Source: Acidobacteriota bacterium (GTDB taxonomy: Bacteria; Acidobacteriota; Thermoanaerobaculia; Gp7-AA8). From it: DNA of 39,721 nt. The stretch lies in NCBI GenBank assembly GCA_016184115.1, contig JACPDH010000008.1, forward strand, positions 1 through 39,721, read 5' to 3'. Below, piece by piece: positions 262 to 10,364 of this stretch. Positions within the stretch are counted from its first letter, which is position 1, and every line of letters begins with the position of its first letter. The notes beneath the pieces were generated by a model, which did no database searches, was not told where the DNA came from, and saw nothing but the letters and a program-made list of their open reading frames with translations. Both the position numbers and the translations under genes were made by a program.

Positions 262-300
262 AAAGCCCTGTCCCGCATAGCGGGGCGGGCTTTTTCTTTT
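262..300 (+). terminator. Rho-independent terminator or attenuator abutting the ClpC-like gene
   Basis: AAAGCCC (262-268) pairs with GGGCTTT (287-293). An inner TCCCG/CGGGG stem (with one T-G pair) closes a short loop, and TTTTTCTTTT follows. The hairpin ends three bases before the first ATG of the next gene, which leaves no room for a separate promoter. It is therefore a leader attenuator, or that gene is transcribed by read-through. Confidence 0.75.
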
Positions 301-302
301 GG

Positions 303-3300
303 ATGAACTTCATGTCGCTCTTCGAGAAGATCTTCGGGACCAATGACCCGGCCAAGCCGAGCGCCGAGGCGTCGCTCGAGGTGTCGATCTACGATCTTGC
401 GAAAGGGGTCGCGGATCATTTCGGCGAAGTCGCACACCCTTCCGAGCTCGCCCGCCATCAACCGTGGAGTGATGCCGTCGCGAAGCTCGCGTCGTCACCC
501 AGCTCCGATGCCGATCTCTTCACCTATGCGCTAGGCGAGAATGCCGTCGTCGCGTCACTCGCCTTACTCGCACTCGCGCATCGCAGTACATCCGAGACCG
601 TGCCGTTTCTTCTCGAGCATATCGACTCTCTCTCGGGCAGCTCGACCAAGTACTTCGCTCTCGACGTTCTCGATCGACTCGTTCCCGTCCCCGAACCACT
701 CCTCGGATCGCTCTTCGTCGCGCTCAACGACGACTGGTCGGACGGCTACGACCGATTCCTCAGTCAGTTCATTCGCGAGCTCGCGCGTCGCCGGACACGA
801 GCGGGAGAGTCAGCGACGTTCGGAGACCGGTTGCCTAACGTGTCGACTCAGAGGCTCCGCGACGTCGACGCACTGCTCCGTCGCCTCGGCTCCGAGGTGA
901 GCGAGTCGTTCCGCGATGAGCTCGACGAGTTCCGCAACCGCACCGCGAACGTTGACTTCCTCCGGCACATCGGCGTCGTCTGGAGCGACGACATGAGCCA
1001 TCCGCCGATCGTCGAGCATGAACGGCTCCGCAACGCCGCATCGACGATCGTCAGCTCGCTCGACGACACTCCGCGCCGATCGGTCCTCGTCATCGGCGAG
1101 GATGGCGTGGGGAAGACTACGATCATTCGTACCGCCGCCCGCGAGCTCCATGCAAAGGGCTGGGTCGTCTTCGAGGCAGGAGCCACCGACATCCTCTCGG
1201 GCCAGTCTTACATTGGCCAGCTGGAAGAGCGAATGCGGACGGTTCTGCAGAGCGTTCGCGGCGAGAAGCGCGTCCTCTGGATCATTCCGCGCTTTTATGA
1301 GCTGCTCCACGCCGGAACGCATCGATACAGCGGCACAGGTCTGCTCGACATGATCCTCCCGGAGATCGACGCTGGCACGATTGCCGTCGTGGGAGAGATC
1401 TCACTCTCGGGCTGGCAGAAATTGGTCGAACAGAAAAGACGTGTCCGCACCTCGCTCCTCAACATCCGCATCGACTCGATGAACGATGGCGAGGCGCGCA
1501 GTCTCGCGCGCCGCTGGGCGATGGAGCGCGCGAATGGTGCGGAGATCCTCCCCGACGACGTCCTCTCCGAAACATTTCAACTCACCACGCAATACCTCGG
1601 GATGCGCGCAGCGCCCGGCAACATCCTCGATACGTTAGGCCTCACCTTCGAACGGATGAGCCGCATTGCCGAGCCAATCGTACCGCTCGCGATAGACGAC
1701 ATCCTCGTCACCCTATCTCAGCTCACTGGCCTGCCGAACAGCATTCTCGACGATCGTGAGAGTCTCGACCTCACCGTACTCCGCGAGACATTCGTCAACC
1801 GAGTCCTCGGCCAGCCGGAAGCGGTCGACACTCTCGTCGAACGTGTTGCGATGATCAAGGCTGGGGTCACCGACCCCAAACGCCCCTTCGGCGTGTTCCT
1901 CTTCGCCGGACCGACCGGTACTGGAAAAACGGAGATCGCGAAGACTCTCGCCGAGTTTCTCTTCGGTTCCGCTGACCGGATGATCCGGCTCGACATGAGC
2001 GAGCTCAAAGCATCAGACTCGATGGGTCGCCTGTTAGGCGACAATGACACGGGAGAGGGAGCCACATCGCTCGTCGACGAGATCCGGAAGCAGCCCTTCT
2101 CCGTCGTGCTCCTGGACGAGTTCGAGAAGGCGCATCCGAATGTCTGGGATCTCTTCCTACAGATTTTCGACGATGGCCGCCTTACCGATCGGCGTGGCCT
2201 GACGGCCGACTTCAGGCACGCGCTGATCATCATGACCTCGAACATCGGCTCCGCGATCCAGACGTCGGGGCGAGTCGGTTTCTCCGATGCCGAGATCGGC
2301 CTGCTCCACAGCAGTCGTGTCATCGCCGCGATCGAGCGGGAACTTCGAAAGGAGTTCATCAACCGGATCGATCGTGTCGTCGTCTTCCGTCCTCTCAGCC
2401 GCGAGACGATGCGCGGCATTCTCCGCAAGGAGATCGCCGAGGCATTCCAGCGGCGCGGACTTCGAAACCGTAGCTGGGCGGTCGAGTGGGACGAGGCTGC
2501 AATCGACCTTCTACTCGAGTGTGGTTTCACCCACGATCTAGGAGCGCGCCCGCTGCGGCGCGCCGTTGAACGGTACCTGCTGACTCCCCTCGCCGAGCGA
2601 ATCGTGAGCCGCCGGGTTCCGTCGGGCGATCAGTTTCTCTTCATTCGAGCCGAGGAGGACCGGCTGGCGATCGACTTCGTCGATCCCGACGCATCAGCTC
2701 CCGCGCGCGCACTCGCTGAGCCGGTTACTGGCGGAGATTCACTCCAACGGCTCGCCCTCGCTGCAGCGGGCCGACGGGACGAGCTCGAATTGCTGCGCGC
2801 TTCACTCGAGCGACTTGGGACGATCGTCGGAAGCGACGTGTGGAAGGAGCGCAAGACGATCGCGCTGCAGATGACGTCGCTCGCCGAGTTCTGGTCGTCA
2901 CCGGAGCGTTTCGAGATTCTCGGCGATGTAGAGATGCGCGACCGGATCGAGAGTGCGCTCGATTCAGCGCACTCGCTCCTCGGCCGCCTTACCAGCCACG
3001 ACAGGGCCGCACCCGCGGAGCTCGCCCGACGGCTCGCGCAGCAGATCTGGCTCATCGGAATCGCGATAGCAGACCTCGAGGAACGTCGCTCCGCGGAGGC
3101 GATACTCGTCGTCGAGTGCCGCGGCGGGACTAACGATGCTTCCCGTGATTTGGGACGCAAGCTAGCGAACATGTACGAATCATGGGCGCGAGGGCGCCGC
3201 ATGCGGTTCGAGAAGGCCGAGAGCGCGACCCCGTCACGATGGCGGTGGATCCTCCTCGCCTCGGGATTCGGCGCACACACCCTGCTCGCTCCCGAGACGG

Positions 3301-3590
3301 GAGTGCATGTGCTGGAGTCGCCAGGAACCGACCCCGGAAGCGTCGAGCGAGCGACGGCTCACGTCCGGGTCGTCGCAGTAAGGCGCGATGCCCCATCCGA
3401 GCATCGCGCAACGCTCATCCAGCGTGCCGACCGGCATCTCGATGGCACCGCCGACTCCCCAACCATTGTCCGCCGCTATCGCGAGATCCCCTCGCCTCTC
3501 GTGCGCGATGCGGTACGGAACTGGAAGACCGGCCGCGCCGATCTCGTCTTCGGCGGCGCATTCGACCTAATCGCGTCGGATGCGAAGTAG
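303..3590 (+). CDS. ClpC-like double AAA+ unfoldase fused to a release-factor-like domain
   Basis: This 1095-residue protein has four parts. Residues 1-240 are helical and unlike the Clp N-domain. AAA+ D1 has Walker A at 265-272 (GEDGVGKT) and a pore-loop Tyr in QSYIG, but at the Walker B position it reads IIPR (P329, R330) where family members have DE. AAA+ D2 has Walker A at 536-543 (GPTGTGKT), Walker B LLDE (D605, E606) and FINRID; a VGF tripeptide (658-660) sits where ClpC carries its ClpP-docking loop. There is no ClpB middle domain, and the GYVG pore loop of D2 is missing. Residues ~845-1095 resemble bacterial RF2: a coiled helical part, then VECRGGTNDASRD like the RF2 AGxGGTEAQDW motif, ETGVHVL like ETGVHRL, and an RxYREIPSPLVRD...TG tail. 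The catalytic GGQ domain is replaced by about 50 unrelated residues. Inferred role: an unfoldase recruited to ribosomes or nascent chains. ATG 303 and ATG 312 both lack a clear ribosome site. Confidence 0.82.
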   Translation: MNFMSLFEKIFGTNDPAKPSAEASLEVSIYDLAKGVADHFGEVAHPSELARHQPWSDAVAKLASSPSSDADLFTYALGENAVVASLALLALAHRSTSETVPFLLEHIDSLSGSSTKYFALDVLDRLVPVPEPLLGSLFVALNDDWSDGYDRFLSQFIRELARRRTRAGESATFGDRLPNVSTQRLRDVDALLRRLGSEVSESFRDELDEFRNRTANVDFLRHIGVVWSDDMSHPPIVEHERLRNAASTIVSSLDDTPRRSVLVIGEDGVGKTTIIRTAARELHAKGWVVFEAGATDILSGQSYIGQLEERMRTVLQSVRGEKRVLWIIPRFYELLHAGTHRYSGTGLLDMILPEIDAGTIAVVGEISLSGWQKLVEQKRRVRTSLLNIRIDSMNDGEARSLARRWAMERANGAEILPDDVLSETFQLTTQYLGMRAAPGNILDTLGLTFERMSRIAEPIVPLAIDDILVTLSQLTGLPNSILDDRESLDLTVLRETFVNRVLGQPEAVDTLVERVAMIKAGVTDPKRPFGVFLFAGPTGTGKTEIAKTLAEFLFGSADRMIRLDMSELKASDSMGRLLGDNDTGEGATSLVDEIRKQPFSVVLLDEFEKAHPNVWDLFLQIFDDGRLTDRRGLTADFRHALIIMTSNIGSAIQTSGRVGFSDAEIGLLHSSRVIAAIERELRKEFINRIDRVVVFRPLSRETMRGILRKEIAEAFQRRGLRNRSWAVEWDEAAIDLLLECGFTHDLGARPLRRAVERYLLTPLAERIVSRRVPSGDQFLFIRAEEDRLAIDFVDPDASAPARALAEPVTGGDSLQRLALAAAGRRDELELLRASLERLGTIVGSDVWKERKTIALQMTSLAEFWSSPERFEILGDVEMRDRIESALDSAHSLLGRLTSHDRAAPAELARRLAQQIWLIGIAIADLEERRSAEAILVVECRGGTNDASRDLGRKLANMYESWARGRRMRFEKAESATPSRWRWILLASGFGAHTLLAPETGVHVLESPGTDPGSVERATAHVRVVAVRRDAPSEHRATLIQRADRHLDGTADSPTIVRRYREIPSPLVRDAVRNWKTGRADLVFGGAFDLIASDAK

Positions 3591-4514: not shown

Positions 4515-4561
4515 GCAAGGGCCGGAAACCTTGCGCCGCGTTCGTCGCGGTTACTTCCATG
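4515..4561 (+). promoter_or_regulatory. Structured 5' leader upstream of the prepilin gene
   Basis: Two hairpins, GCAAGG/CCTTGC (4515-4534, loop GCCGGAAA) and CCGCG/CGCGG (4536-4550), come just before an intrinsic terminator and the ribosome site of the next gene. The order aptamer-like hairpins, terminator, ribosome site is typical of a riboswitch or attenuator. I could not match it to a known class; c-di-GMP (GEMM) was considered because it often precedes prepilin genes, but its GCAAAGCC core is missing. Confidence 0.35.
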
Positions 4562-4583
4562 AAAGGGGCGTACGCCCCTTTTT
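4562..4583 (+). terminator. Intrinsic terminator just upstream of the prepilin ribosome site
   Basis: AAAGGGGC and GCCCCTTT form a perfect 8-bp stem (loop GTAC) that runs into TTTTT. It ends eight bases before the AGGAGG of the following gene, which suggests transcription attenuation and not the end of a separate operon. Confidence 0.8.
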
Positions 4584-4603
4584 CGCGTTCAGGAGGACTC
4601 CAC

Positions 4604-5773
4604 ATGATCACGATTGAGGCACGGACGATTCACGGAGATGAGAGCAGACTCGCAGGCGCTAGACGTGGAGGAAGCCGCGGTTTCACGCTCATCGAGTTGC
4701 TTGTCGTCGTCGCAATCATCGCGGTGCTGATTGGCCTGCTGCTCCCCGCCGTCCAGAAAGTGCGTGAAGCGTCGGCAAAGCCAACCTGCTCAAACAACCT
4801 CAAGCAGCTCGCGCTCGCCGCACACAATTATTACGATCAGGAGAAGCGTCTCCCGTCCGAGCTCTCCGATCTCAGCGGCTTTTGCGCGCGCAATCCCGCG
4901 CTGTGCGCAAATGTCGACGCGGATATCCTCGCCACCGGCCAGGATGAAGGCTACTGGTACTTCATTGACATCCTCGCCGCGGATAGCTTCAGGATCGGCG
5001 CCGAACCTTCGTTCCCGGGGCGCACCGGCTCCGAGACGTTCGTCAATGAGCTGAGGCTCGGCGATGGCCGATTCGTCGAGAGCTTCGGTATCGTACCCAC
5101 CCCTGGAGCGGACCTCGGACGGGCCGAGATGTTCGCAAACATCCGCGCCGAGGGGTCGCGCACGATCTCCGGGCTGCTGATGCTCGAGCCGAGCGCTGTT
5201 TTCGAAGCGCGTGACTTCGTGAGCGCGCCCGACGCGCAGTGGACGACGGCCGGAATCCTCGACCGAAACGGCGATGGAAGCGTCACGCTTCTCGAGCTCA
5301 TGGACTGGCCCGGCGCCTACGCGCAGCGCTTCGATGGGATCGACGAGAAGCTCGAGCCCGCAGTCACGGGCTTCGCCAGCTTTGTGCGCGACGAAATGAG
5401 GCTCGACACGTCGAGTCGCGAGATGCAGGAGCAGATCGCGATTCCTGCGAGCCTCGCGTTCGACCCGGACCTCGGCCGCAACTACTTCAACCTCACCGAG
5501 CTCTGCGCTATGACGAATCGACTGGTGACCGACGAGAAGGTGGCGCGTGCGCTGTGCGGTGACCTGGACAAAGCCAACCTCGCAGTCGGCCGCGGTGACC
5601 TTCCCGCGGTGCAGCGGCATCTCACGAATTACCAGGATCGTGTCGCCGCCGAGACTCATCTTTCCCTGACCGACAGGGACGCGATGACCCTGCTCGTGTG
5701 GCTCACCACTGTCTCTTTCGGCAACCGGAGGGACAGGTGCGATGCACTGTGTTCTCCATCCCGCGAAGCGTGA
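4604..5773 (+). CDS. Prepilin-type N-terminal cleavage/methylation protein with EF-hand
   Basis: The start at ATG 4604 is set by AGGAGG seven bases upstream; an in-frame ATG at 4559 overlaps the terminator and is unlikely. The 389-residue protein has a 26-residue leader ending in Gly, then [13 protein letters not shown] with Glu at +5 (E31), the signature cut by prepilin peptidase. The next stretch ([16 protein letters not shown]) is typical of DUF1559-type prepilins, which are common in Planctomycetes and Acidobacteria. Residues 220-231 form a canonical EF-hand loop (D220, N222, D224, S226, T228, E231), so calcium probably stabilises the globular domain. No other pilus or type II secretion gene is nearby, so it is an orphan pseudopilin-like surface or periplasmic protein. 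The rest of the C-terminal domain is not recognised. Confidence 0.8.
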
Positions 5774-5929
5774 TCGCGCAGAGTACTAAGTGCCCCGTTG
5801 CGCACCCCAACCGCGATTGCACCGCTCGTACCCTTACACGCGACGTCAGTTGGCATCGCTCCTGCTCAGTCCTCACTGATATCCCCCAAAGCACCGGATT
5901 ACGGCAATCAAATGAGTAGGAGGCCTTCA

Positions 5930-7108
5930 ATGAGACTGTACATTTTTCAACTGTTCGCAGTAATTACATTGGTTGTCTGTGCGGCTACGGCGAGCGCCGC
6001 GAGTCCCGAGAGCGGTAACGTGGATGGCAATCGAGGAGAGGCAACCTGGACGGGAGGGCCGTTCTACGTCTCGAACCCCGCCACTACTGCCGGACTCGTC
6101 AAACCGGTTCCTTGCGACTTCGGCCAGCCAGCGTGTGACACCTTCCGCGTGACTGTCGCCTCGAACGTCAAGGAGCTTCTGATCGCGATCGCGCCGGCGA
6201 ACGGCTACGAATCGGACGACTACGATCTCCACATCTACGACGACAAAGGTTCGCGAGTTGGAGAAGACGCCGACGAGGATGGATATGAATCGTCGGTCAT
6301 CGCCACTGACGGCACGTCCACATACTTCGACGTTCGTGTCCAGCCATACCTCGTCGTCCCAGGCTCATCGTATTCGGGCGTCGTTCAAGCGACACGGCGG
6401 CAACCGGTCGACGTCGTCACGGAGTGCCTGGAGCTGATCCCCGAGAACATCGGCTCGACGATCCTCGACGGCGGACAACGCGTCGAGCTTTCCTTGATGC
6501 TGCTCCTGGATGGCACGGATGCCGCCGTGGCACAGCAACTGGTTGCGCGTGCGGCGGAGTCATACAAGCCGTTGAACATCGATCTGACTCTCGTGAAGAC
6601 GAAGGCCGTCGCGTTTACGAGCTCGATTTCGACCGACCTGATCGCCGCAGCGAAGGCTACCGTGGGCGGCGTGCCACCCAAGGGAATCGATATCGTCGGT
6701 GTGTTGACGAACAAGACCATGCAGGCCGCGACGGCCGACGCCGGAACCGTGGTGGGCCAGGCGGACTGCATTGGCGGGATCCGCTGGGATAGCACGTCGT
6801 TCTTCGTCGCGACCGACATCCGGGACATCGAGAATCCAACGACCGGGACGACCGGCACGCTCAACTCGCTCGGACTCAATCCAAACGTCGACGCTGCATC
6901 CGAGACCGTCGCCCATGAGATCGGGCATCTTCTTGGAGCACACCACCACTACGCGAACTGCGTGGAGGGAAATCTCAGCAGCGGCGGCCCGTCGGATGTC
7001 TCGCCTTGCACGCTCATGTTCCCAGCCGTGAATTTCGCCTCGCTCAATTTCGCGGCGCTCGAGGGGGCCGTTGTGCGCGGTCACACGGTACAGCACGCCT
7101 CACCCTAG
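5930..7108 (+). CDS. Secreted metzincin-type zinc metallopeptidase with PPC-like domain
   Basis: ATG 5930 is chosen because TAGGAGG lies six bases upstream and it opens a clear signal peptide (MRLYIFQLFAVITLVVC..., cut near ASA/AS at about residue 23). The mature part of the 392-residue protein has a pre-peptidase C-terminal-like beta domain (~residues 60-160, with an acidic DDYDLHIYDDKG stretch) and then a peptidase domain. The zinc motif is H329-E-I-G-H333-LLGAH-H339, the HExxHxxGxxH signature of metzincins, so E330 would be the catalytic base. Cysteines near 350-370 may form disulfides outside the cell. The substrate is unknown. The TAG stop lies in CCCTAGTGTT, a string also found at the end of the EamA gene. 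Confidence 0.8.
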   Translation: MRLYIFQLFAVITLVVCAATASAASPESGNVDGNRGEATWTGGPFYVSNPATTAGLVKPVPCDFGQPACDTFRVTVASNVKELLIAIAPANGYESDDYDLHIYDDKGSRVGEDADEDGYESSVIATDGTSTYFDVRVQPYLVVPGSSYSGVVQATRRQPVDVVTECLELIPENIGSTILDGGQRVELSLMLLLDGTDAAVAQQLVARAAESYKPLNIDLTLVKTKAVAFTSSISTDLIAAAKATVGGVPPKGIDIVGVLTNKTMQAATADAGTVVGQADCIGGIRWDSTSFFVATDIRDIENPTTGTTGTLNSLGLNPNVDAASETVAHEIGHLLGAHHHYANCVEGNLSSGGPSDVSPCTLMFPAVNFASLNFAALEGAVVRGHTVQHASP

Positions 7109-7973: not shown

Positions 7974-10364
7974 CTACGCGTGCGCGAGCTCCGGCTTGCT
8001 CGTTCCTCGCGCCACTCGGAGCGCCTCGACGTACTTCACGATCGAACGGTACTGCCCTTCGCCGTCGAGCCCAGCCTCCGCGATCACGTGCGCTCCCTGG
8101 CCGCTTCCGAGGAAATGCCCGCGCTGATAGGGATGAAGCGACATCGACCGACCGAGGTCGGAACGAATCCAGCGGTACATCGTCGCCATCGTAAAGCCGG
8201 TGATTCCCATCGCCTCCTGCGCGCTTGCCTCGGGGAAGATCCGGCGCCGCTCGGCTTCGGGGAGCAGGTCGAAGAGCTCGGCGCTCGCGACGTAGTAGAC
8301 ATCGAGATTGATGCCGTCGCGGATGAGCCGCGGAAGGGCATCTTCGACGAACGCATAGGCAACGCCCGATTCCTGCAGGACGATCGTGCCGTCGGCCACA
8401 CCCTTTGCCTTACGCAGGCAGTAAACGCCCCGCGTCGCGTCATCCGCCGGCGCGAGACCGAGCGCGGCGCGATCAGGAACTCTCTCGTTAGGGCGCGTCA
8501 CGAACGGCGCGATCACCGCCGGCCGCTTCGCAAGCGCCGCGGAGACGAGGGGGAAGATCTCCGCCGGATCCCACGGCGTGAGCGTAATCATCGTGCCGGG
8601 CGGGAAATTTTCCTGGAGGAGCTGGAGCGGCTGCGGGTCGGCGTGCGTGGGCCCATCCTCGCCCGTCTTGAGTCCTGCGTGCGCGCAGATGAGCACCATC
8701 GGCTTGAACGGCTCGTGCGCGATCGCCTCGCGCGCCTGATTACCGATCGCGTGCAGGCGCATCGCAATGTGCCCGAGCGGCGCAATGAACGCGCCGTACG
8801 ACGAGGCGACTCCCATGTGGGTCCCGAAGGCCGCAAGACCCGAGAGGACACCGCTGATGGCATCTTCGCAGATACCTCCGACCGCGAGCGTTCGCGAGTC
8901 GGCGTTCGAGTGCGCGTTGTAGAAGCCGCCAGGGAAGCCCTTCGCTCCTTCGTTGACCGAGGTCGAGCCGAGCAGATCGGCCGCGGAGATGAAGATGGAG
9001 CCCTTACTGACCTTGTTGTAGTGGCCGATCGCCCTTCCAAGCTCCGCGCGGAGCGTCGTCGAGGTGCCCGCGGCGAGCATCAGTTCTTCGGGGACGACGC
9101 CTTCGCGCGCCGCGTCGTAGATCGCGTCGATCGCACGCTCGGGGGCGCGCAGTTCACGCTTCCTGGAGTCCAGCCTCTCGATTGCCTTGCGAAGACGCGA
9201 AGCGAGCGTCTCCACGACACCTCGGTTTGCCTCGAGCACCTCGCGCAGCACGCTGAGCGACTGCCAGAAGCAGCTTTCGACGGTTGCGGTGTCTTTCCCC
9301 CCCGCACAACGCATGAGACCCGGCTCACAGCTCGGGACTTTCAGCTCGACGTCGCTCATCATCGGCTCGAGCGCGTCGTAGAAACCACCGGTGCAGAGCT
9401 TATGTCCGGCGCCATGCGACGCCCGGCCTTCGATTCCGTACTGCCATCCCTTCACCGTTCGGTAGATGATCGCAGTCGGCTGACCATTGTCGATCGCGAG
9501 CGCCTTTCTCTGCGCCGCCACGATCTGTTGGAAGTCCTTGCCGTCTGGCACCAGAATCACGTTCCAGTCATTGATGTGGAAGAGCTCGGCGGGTTCCCAC
9601 TGCACGTAGTCACCGCGCAGGTCGCCTTCGCGCGTCACGCGCTCGGAATCGATCGATGCCTGGTTCCAGTCGAGGTGGAGAACCACGTTACCTAGCGACA
9701 CCGTACCGGCAAAGGCTATCGATTCGGCGACGCGGCCCGGAGTCATGCCTCCCTCGCCCTCGATGACGTGAACCTTCGGTGCCTTGCCGCTCCCATACGC
9801 GTCGATCGCGCCTAACCCAAGCCCCATCGATGACGCGACCCCGACACCCGAGGCGCCCGTCGCGATTTTGATGAAAGGGGTCGCCGGAGTCGGATGACCG
9901 TCGAGCGCTTTCGAGCGGAACTGCCGGAAGAGAGGAGTGTCGATCGTCGGGTTGCGGCGGAATCCGAGAAGATCCTCGAGTCGCAGCTGGTACGCCTCGT
10001 TCGACGGGAGAAGCTCGGGCGAACCGATCCGCGCGATCTCGTTGCGCAGCGCCCACATCGCGTAGAGTCCCATCGCCTTATGCCCGGCCGCGTAGGAGAT
10101 CAGATCGGCGTCGCGACGGTCGGGTTGGGAGACGTCGTAGTCCATCGCGTCGAACAGCAGCGCGGAAACGATCCGGCCCGACGAGATCGACCCGCCCGGG
10201 TGTCCCGACATCGGTACGTAGTTGTAGAGGATCGCGCAGAGCGATCGGTAGAGGGCGTCGAACGTATCGAATCCCGCAAGCTCCGCGCGCGTGAGTGGCT
10301 GCAGCGCTCCGTCCTGCGTAATGTCGACGAACAGCGTGCTCCGCTTCACGAACGGTTCCTTCAT
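7974..10364 (-). CDS. tkt: Transketolase family thiamine-diphosphate enzyme
   Basis: The 796-residue protein has the full transketolase layout: an N-terminal ThDP domain with SGHPGGSIS near residue 54, a second HP motif (LDGHPTPATP), a metal/diphosphate motif read as GEGGMTPGRV...WNQASID (GEGG in place of the common GDG), a central pyrimidine domain with EDGPTHADPQPLQ, and a C-terminal domain. It should move two-carbon units between sugar phosphates in the cytosol. At nearly 800 residues it is longer than the usual ~660, and the substituted motif means a different donor is possible. AGGAGAG lies upstream of ATG 10364. The aminotransferase gene ends 36 bp before it, so the two are co-transcribed. 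Confidence 0.85.
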   Translation of the reverse strand: MKEPFVKRSTLFVDITQDGALQPLTRAELAGFDTFDALYRSLCAILYNYVPMSGHPGGSISSGRIVSALLFDAMDYDVSQPDRRDADLISYAAGHKAMGLYAMWALRNEIARIGSPELLPSNEAYQLRLEDLLGFRRNPTIDTPLFRQFRSKALDGHPTPATPFIKIATGASGVGVASSMGLGLGAIDAYGSGKAPKVHVIEGEGGMTPGRVAESIAFAGTVSLGNVVLHLDWNQASIDSERVTREGDLRGDYVQWEPAELFHINDWNVILVPDGKDFQQIVAAQRKALAIDNGQPTAIIYRTVKGWQYGIEGRASHGAGHKLCTGGFYDALEPMMSDVELKVPSCEPGLMRCAGGKDTATVESCFWQSLSVLREVLEANRGVVETLASRLRKAIERLDSRKRELRAPERAIDAIYDAAREGVVPEELMLAAGTSTTLRAELGRAIGHYNKVSKGSIFISAADLLGSTSVNEGAKGFPGGFYNAHSNADSRTLAVGGICEDAISGVLSGLAAFGTHMGVASSYGAFIAPLGHIAMRLHAIGNQAREAIAHEPFKPMVLICAHAGLKTGEDGPTHADPQPLQLLQENFPPGTMITLTPWDPAEIFPLVSAALAKRPAVIAPFVTRPNERVPDRAALGLAPADDATRGVYCLRKAKGVADGTIVLQESGVAYAFVEDALPRLIRDGINLDVYYVASAELFDLLPEAERRRIFPEASAQEAMGITGFTMATMYRWIRSDLGRSMSLHPYQRGHFLGSGQGAHVIAEAGLDGEGQYRSIVKYVEALRVARGTSKPELAHA

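Follow-up and report, generated by a model that had tools for sequence, protein, structure and literature searches.

What would a bacterium do with a Clp-type ATPase that ends in a piece of a translation release factor? The question is raised by an uninterrupted open reading frame (ORF) of 1095 amino acids at positions 303-3590 of the plus strand of the window, by which we mean the whole stretch of DNA analysed here (39,721 nucleotides; contig JACPDH010000008.1 of the Acidobacteriota bacterium assembly GCA_016184115.1). An earlier note, made from the sequence alone, had described the product as a ClpC-like AAA+ unfoldase fused to an RF2-like domain that lacks its GGQ segment, and had proposed that it draws stalled ribosomes or nascent chains into ClpP. 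Motifs, profile comparisons and the predicted fold bear out the architecture, a Clp-type AAA+ protein fused to a GGQ-less RF2 module, and comparison of its homologues indicates that the fusion represents a genuine and conserved family.

The C-terminal ~270 residues of the window protein form an RF2 module made up of domains 1, 2 and 4, an identity that is close to certain. The RF2-like part begins nearer residue 824 than residue 840, where it had first been placed. The gene and the parts of the module lie as follows.

303-3590, plus strand: whole gene, an AAA+/RF2 fusion of 1095 amino acids, with an alternative start at ATG 312 and a family of 80+ homologues
2772-3083, plus strand: RF2-like domain 1, a helical bundle (residues ~824-927), from profile, AlphaFold2 model and structural alignment
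3084-3386, plus strand: RF2-like domain 2 (residues ~928-1028), with the GLH-type motif kept (GVH here) and SPF and codon-reading residues lost
3387-3464, plus strand: short linker replacing the deleted RF2 domain 3 (GGQ), from motif spacing in the family
3462-3584, plus strand: RF2-like domain 4 tail with conserved basic residues, from hhalign and the family alignment

Taken alone, the C-terminus of the window protein gives a sub-threshold match to Pfam PCRF (E 0.006-0.0073); across the family, PCRF is matched by 61 of 65 members and prfB by 63 of 65. A profile built from the alignment of 65 homologous C-termini matched exclusively RF2/RF1 chains among PDB sequences, with RF2 at the top (E 3.7e-17) and no unrelated chain below E 0.5. 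Aligned to RF2 with hhalign, the same profile reached 98.9% probability (E 1.9e-17), the alignment bridging the missing domain into the tail; the match to RF1 was weaker (E 1.8e-11), and by these alignments the module is clearly nearer RF2 than RF1. The earlier note would have been refuted by a lack of HHpred-type hits to class I release factors or by an unrelated fold, and the results speak strongly against both. The AlphaFold2 model of the module (predicted local distance difference test 91.4, predicted template modelling score 0.89) returned 50 Foldseek matches at E <= 0.001, all of them RF1/RF2-type class I release factors, and aligned best with E. coli RF2 (1gqe; Z 18.7, 268 residues, root-mean-square deviation 4.8).

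The catalytic part is gone. In the family, the spacing between the GLH and RRYR motifs is 34-62 residues (median 52) versus 126-127 in RF2, which implies that domain 3 has been deleted together with its GGQ, as the earlier note had it. No family member carries GGQ at the expected place, and the chance GGQ tripeptides seen in some lie elsewhere. Also lost, according to hhalign and the family alignment, are the codon-specificity residues of RF2; SPF is not conserved, nor is the Glu that RF2 carries after GGT, and the GGT motif itself, which the earlier note had listed among the RF2-like motifs, turned out to be peculiar to the window protein. What has been kept is the tail, whose consensus RRYRxxPSPLVRDxxRGWRxGRxDxVLxGxFDL aligns gap-free to the RF2 tail. 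In 87-100% of members a basic residue occupies each of positions 1016, 1057, 1058, 1060, 1068, 1075 and 1078, and four of the tail positions among these are non-basic in RF2, a pattern compatible with RNA contact. The linker joining the module to the D2-small domain is modelled with low confidence and is probably flexible.

Homologues were sought in a contig collection holding one genome per species (84,980 species), from which 80 loci were kept. The relatives share 34-51% identity, are mostly full-length, and score above 500 bits, whereas no ordinary Clp protein exceeds 261 bits, which leaves a clear gap; more than 60 are full-length single-ORF homologues in independent assemblies. They occur in at least nine phyla, with submitter-named hosts in Acidobacteria, Planctomycetota, Proteobacteria (Lysobacter, Xanthomonas, Luteimonas, Hyphomicrobium, Labrys and Inquilinus), Latescibacterota, Krumholzibacteriota, Eisenbacteria, Gemmatimonadetes, Bacteroidota (Ulvibacterium) and others. 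The spread is patchy: the fusion occurs in 6 of the 247 genomes of the window's phylum, and in 9 of 99 genomes belonging to the same family as Lysobacter antibioticus. In a quick tree some of the groupings follow phylum and several are mixed, a pattern compatible with some horizontal transfer. Searches of plasmids, phages and viral contigs with the C-terminus gave no match, and a mobile or viral origin was rejected on that ground.

The ATPase half of the protein departs from known Clp proteins in both of its modules, the features of which are listed here.

1023-1682, plus strand: AAA+ module 1 (residues ~241-460), with Pfam AAA at 261-327
1095-1118, plus strand: Walker A of module 1 (GEDGVGKT, residues 265-272), with the first G, second G and K in 67/67 members
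1197-1226, plus strand: pore loop of module 1 (SGQSYIGQLE, residues 299-308), aromatic kept (Y/F/W in 66/67)
1272-1295, plus strand: degenerate Walker B of module 1 (residues 324-331), acidic pair replaced by x-P-D/x
1695-2687, plus strand: AAA+ module 2 with D2-small (residues ~465-795), AAA_2 E 3.4e-44 and ClpB_D2-small E 2.3e-15
1908-1931, plus strand: Walker A of module 2 (GPTGTGKT, residues 536-543), conserved in 67/67
2037-2069, plus strand: site of the missing GYVG aromatic pore loop of module 2 (residues 579-589), from comparison with ordinary Clp proteins
2103-2120, plus strand: Walker B of module 2 (VVLLDE, residues 601-606), DE in 67/67
2274-2282, plus strand: VGF tripeptide at the ClpP-docking position (residues 658-660), GF in 67/67

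Both Walker A motifs of the earlier description are thus confirmed, at residues 265-272 and 536-543. In the family, the Walker B acidic pair of module 1 is replaced by a motif of the W-x-[VI]-P-D-F type, and this module is predicted to be unable to hydrolyse ATP. Module 2, where Pfam places AAA_2 at 527-691 and ClpB_D2-small at 698-777, is complete in its ATPase motifs (Walker A, Walker B, an Arg-finger-type NR-D segment and sensor 2). The VGF tripeptide had been read as a ClpP-docking loop, and its position is upheld: in alignments it coincides with the [VM]GF loop found in ClpA/ClpC-type proteins and lacking in ClpB types, and its GF is invariant among the 67 members. The preceding residue is hydrophobic in 48/67, Pro in 18/67 and Ala in 1/67; the window VGF fits the published docking consensus (L/I/V)-G-(F/L) (PMC8745299). 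The protein matched the NCBIfam equivalog models for ClpA and ClpB but fell far below their cut-offs (290.8 versus 993 bits and 315 versus 1232 bits), and on sequence grounds it cannot be classed as a canonical ClpA, nor as a canonical ClpC. Contig C78 of the same genome (~953-3310) encodes an ordinary ClpA/ClpC-type protein with a Clp-like N-terminal region and an IVGF loop (36% match); its N-terminal region is its own, the RF2 module is absent, and the protein offers a convenient comparison from within the genome.

In front of the ATPase modules stands a further domain.

387-1022, plus strand: N-terminal all-helical domain (residues ~29-240) in a HEAT/ARM-like arrangement, standing where the Clp N-domain would

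Pfam detected no Clp N-domain in the window protein or in 55 homologues, and the N-terminal domain matches no Pfam family. Foldseek gave no match to it at E <= 0.001, and Z values of at most 8.1 were obtained with assorted HEAT/ARM proteins, a likeness of the model that may reflect a common arrangement only. A hydrophobic helix, defined by a mean hydropathy of at least 1.6 over 19 residues, opens 56 of the 65 members with enough sequence and is often followed by basic residues; it is predicted to anchor the protein in the inner membrane with the ATPase on the cytoplasmic side. No such helix is present in the window protein or in the Krumholzibacteriota members, which have short starts in its place.

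How might these parts work together? We tentatively favour, at slightly under an even chance, a reading in which the RF2 module docks the Clp-type ATPase on ribosomes, where the ATPase then remodels a bound substrate. Under this docking model, a two-module Clp/Hsp100-type ATPase, held at the inner membrane by its N-terminal helix in most relatives, would carry an RF2 module (domains 1, 2 and 4) that could neither hydrolyse peptidyl-tRNA nor read stop codons and would act as a docking arm, bringing the ATPase to ribosomes through the surfaces that RF2 uses. RF2 domain 1 faces the L11 region; the docking faces would be the decoding-centre side of domains 2/4 and the L11-stalk side of domain 1. 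ATP hydrolysis by module 2 would remodel or pull a ribosome-bound item, either a nascent chain or an A-site factor, with the GF loop offering the option of handing the substrate to ClpP. We infer the ribosome docking, the substrate and the ClpP partnership: domains 1, 2 and 4 and a basic tail that are kept, with GGQ and codon reading lost, are what one would expect a docking arm to look like. Also in favour of the model are the closeness to RF2 in profile and fold, the complete ATPase motifs of module 2, the invariant GF, the strong clpP matches in 26 of 28 carrier genomes and the membrane helix of 56/65 members. The narrower version, a membrane-anchored Clp-type machine that docks on inner-membrane ribosomes via its dead RF2 and pulls out jammed chains or factors, is unlikely.

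Several observations weigh against docking and delivery to ClpP. The codon-specificity residues of RF2 are gone from the module, and the conserved remainder may be purely structural. Because module 1 has lost its Walker B acids and module 2 its aromatic pore loop, canonical unfolding and feeding of ClpP cannot be assumed, and threading into ClpP is doubtful; PGF, present in 18/67 members, falls outside the usual [LIV]-G-[FL], and two carrier metagenome-assembled genomes have weak clpP matches. Neighbour clustering gave no gene that ties the fusion to translation. Finally, a relative from the same bacterial family (G010:C328, 576-2981; 60% identical) stops after D2-small and has no RF2 module, and its genome showed no RF2-like match beyond apparently ordinary release factors.

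That same truncated relative, which manages without the module, fits an alternative in which the RF2 fold has been reused off the ribosome as a protein-interaction or assembly module of a membrane-tethered, Clp-like remodelling ATPase, serving substrate selection, hexamer packing or regulation. The loss of all codon-reading and catalytic elements, the low-confidence and probably flexible linker to D2-small, the anchor in most members and a helical-repeat N-domain of a kind typical of protein binding all suit this explanation, which we nevertheless consider somewhat unlikely, given that domains 1, 2 and 4 and the basic tail are kept jointly across phyla, beyond what a generic scaffold would need. 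The conserved basic residues of the tail could instead mean that the module binds mRNA or another RNA, by analogy with the plant factor PrfB3, a dead RF2 turned RNA stabiliser (PMC5897788); the ATPase belongs to a protein-remodelling type that favours a protein substrate, and RNA binding appears decidedly unlikely.

The patchy spread across phyla, and the conflict-driven origin argued for several release-factor-like rescue systems (PMC6514570), would suit a role in stress or defence, in which the protein takes over the A site or stalk and so inactivates or shields ribosomes, for instance under phage attack. We judge such a role highly improbable: PADLOC matches are to generic AAA only, and the gene is solitary, without shared neighbours and without matches on plasmids, phages or viral contigs. 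As for a chance resemblance or a gene fusion made by assembly, the sub-threshold single-sequence PCRF match (E 0.0073) would suit it, whereas more than 60 full-length homologues in independent assemblies and the strong profile and fold matches rule it out, leaving it a probability that is virtually nil.

ClpP and the known rescue factors were followed in 28 carrier genomes, with SmpB as a stand-in for tmRNA. The earlier note had asked whether clpP is nearby, and it is not; clpP lies elsewhere, with a strong match in 26/28 genomes, a count that says little because nearly all bacteria have clpP. The earlier note had further envisaged a route separate from tmRNA and RqcH, with which the data are compatible and no more: smpB was found in 26/28 carriers and RqcH above the cut-off in 13/28, while the genome of the window has clpP and smpB and no match to RqcH. 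On these counts the fusion is an addition to these systems, and a replacement of tmRNA or RqcH was rejected. No association with rescue genes, whether as shared neighbours or as mutual exclusion, was seen among the loci and the 28 carrier genomes.

In known bacterial rescue routes, the chain is tagged or released first and degraded later. If the module docks on ribosomes, the fusion would physically and directly tie a Clp-type ATPase to the bacterial ribosome, and a bacterial release factor that has lost its catalytic and codon-reading functions would have been reused as a targeting arm; if docking takes place at the membrane, it would represent a previously undescribed co-translational quality-control route there. 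The idea is directly testable in cultivable carriers such as Lysobacter antibioticus. Even without ribosome binding, the unusual division of labour, in which the grip loop is retained by one AAA+ module and the ATPase by the other, would be informative on how Hsp100 motors work.

With ClpA/ClpC, the fusion shares two AAA+ modules, ClpB_D2-small, the GF loop at the docking position, the D1 aromatic pore loop and the module 2 motifs; unlike them, it lacks the Clp N-domain, the module 1 Walker B acids and the module 2 GYVG loop, and has a C-terminal RF2 module and, in most relatives, a membrane anchor. With RF2 (prfB), it shares the fold and order of domains 1, 2 and 4, the GxH motif and the tail R-x-Y...P...V-[KR]-D...G...VL-x-G-x-x-D, and differs in lacking domain 3/GGQ, SPF and the codon-reading residues and in being joined to an ATPase. 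FtsH, a membrane-tethered AAA+ machine of the inner membrane, belongs to another AAA clade; the comparison concerns working mode alone, in that both would be inner-membrane-tethered AAA+ proteins, whereas FtsH has its own protease domain and no release-factor module. PrfH, also a release-factor paralogue, gives a weaker fold match to the module (Z 9-10), and is stand-alone, without AAA+, with structures on damaged ribosomes (9mq4, 7sa4). Plant PrfB3 is likewise a repurposed RF2 paralogue without SPF and GGQ, which binds the petB 3' untranslated region (PMC5897788), but it acts on its own, as an RNA stabiliser in organelles, and has no AAA+ partner domain. In the literature searched, of partial coverage, the fusion family was not described, and Clp goes unmentioned in a survey of release factors from 2019. 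Since many members give strong PCRF matches, the architecture is probably present in databases without having drawn comment.

A second, very divergent AAA/RF-like fusion (G036:C15, 1558-4557, minus strand) has a C-terminus that matches RF1/RF2 weakly (E 2e-4 to 4e-2) and, by eye, retains more of domain 3, with GGQ again missing; it is possibly an intermediate or an independent fusion. A phylum search with this C-terminus returned mostly ordinary release factors and one member of the present family, with no further fusion of its type. Three family loci, L028 (5224-9186), L065 and L071, are split over two ORFs, reflecting either draft-assembly frameshifts or decaying genes.

Neighbour clustering across the ~80 loci revealed no conserved neighbours; what clustered was specific to a lineage, for example mutS in the Lysobacteraceae, or aconitase and TPR genes in the Acidobacteriota. 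ATG 312 is probably the true start rather than 303, because the Met that corresponds to it opens the nearest relative (G010:C328); upstream of position 303, no clear ribosome-binding site is seen. Closely 3' of that relative lies another reading frame, thioredoxin-like by eye. One feature stands in the leader.

267-289, plus strand: terminator-like hairpin with a T tract, ending just 5' of the start codon

The terminator-like hairpin of the earlier note is real, and the regulated expression read into it is unsupported, because the hairpin is unique to the window locus (1/64 loci) and not conserved among relatives; it is probably the terminator of an upstream gene or a local feature. An Rfam search of the window gave zero matches. 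By eye, a second terminator-like inverted repeat followed by T residues lies 5' of it, at 40-66. Farther along the window, 4559-7108 holds a pseudopilin-like protein (N_methyl, DUF1559) and then a reprolysin-like metallopeptidase match, and 7974-10364 on the minus strand encodes a protein with transketolase-type thiamine-binding domains.
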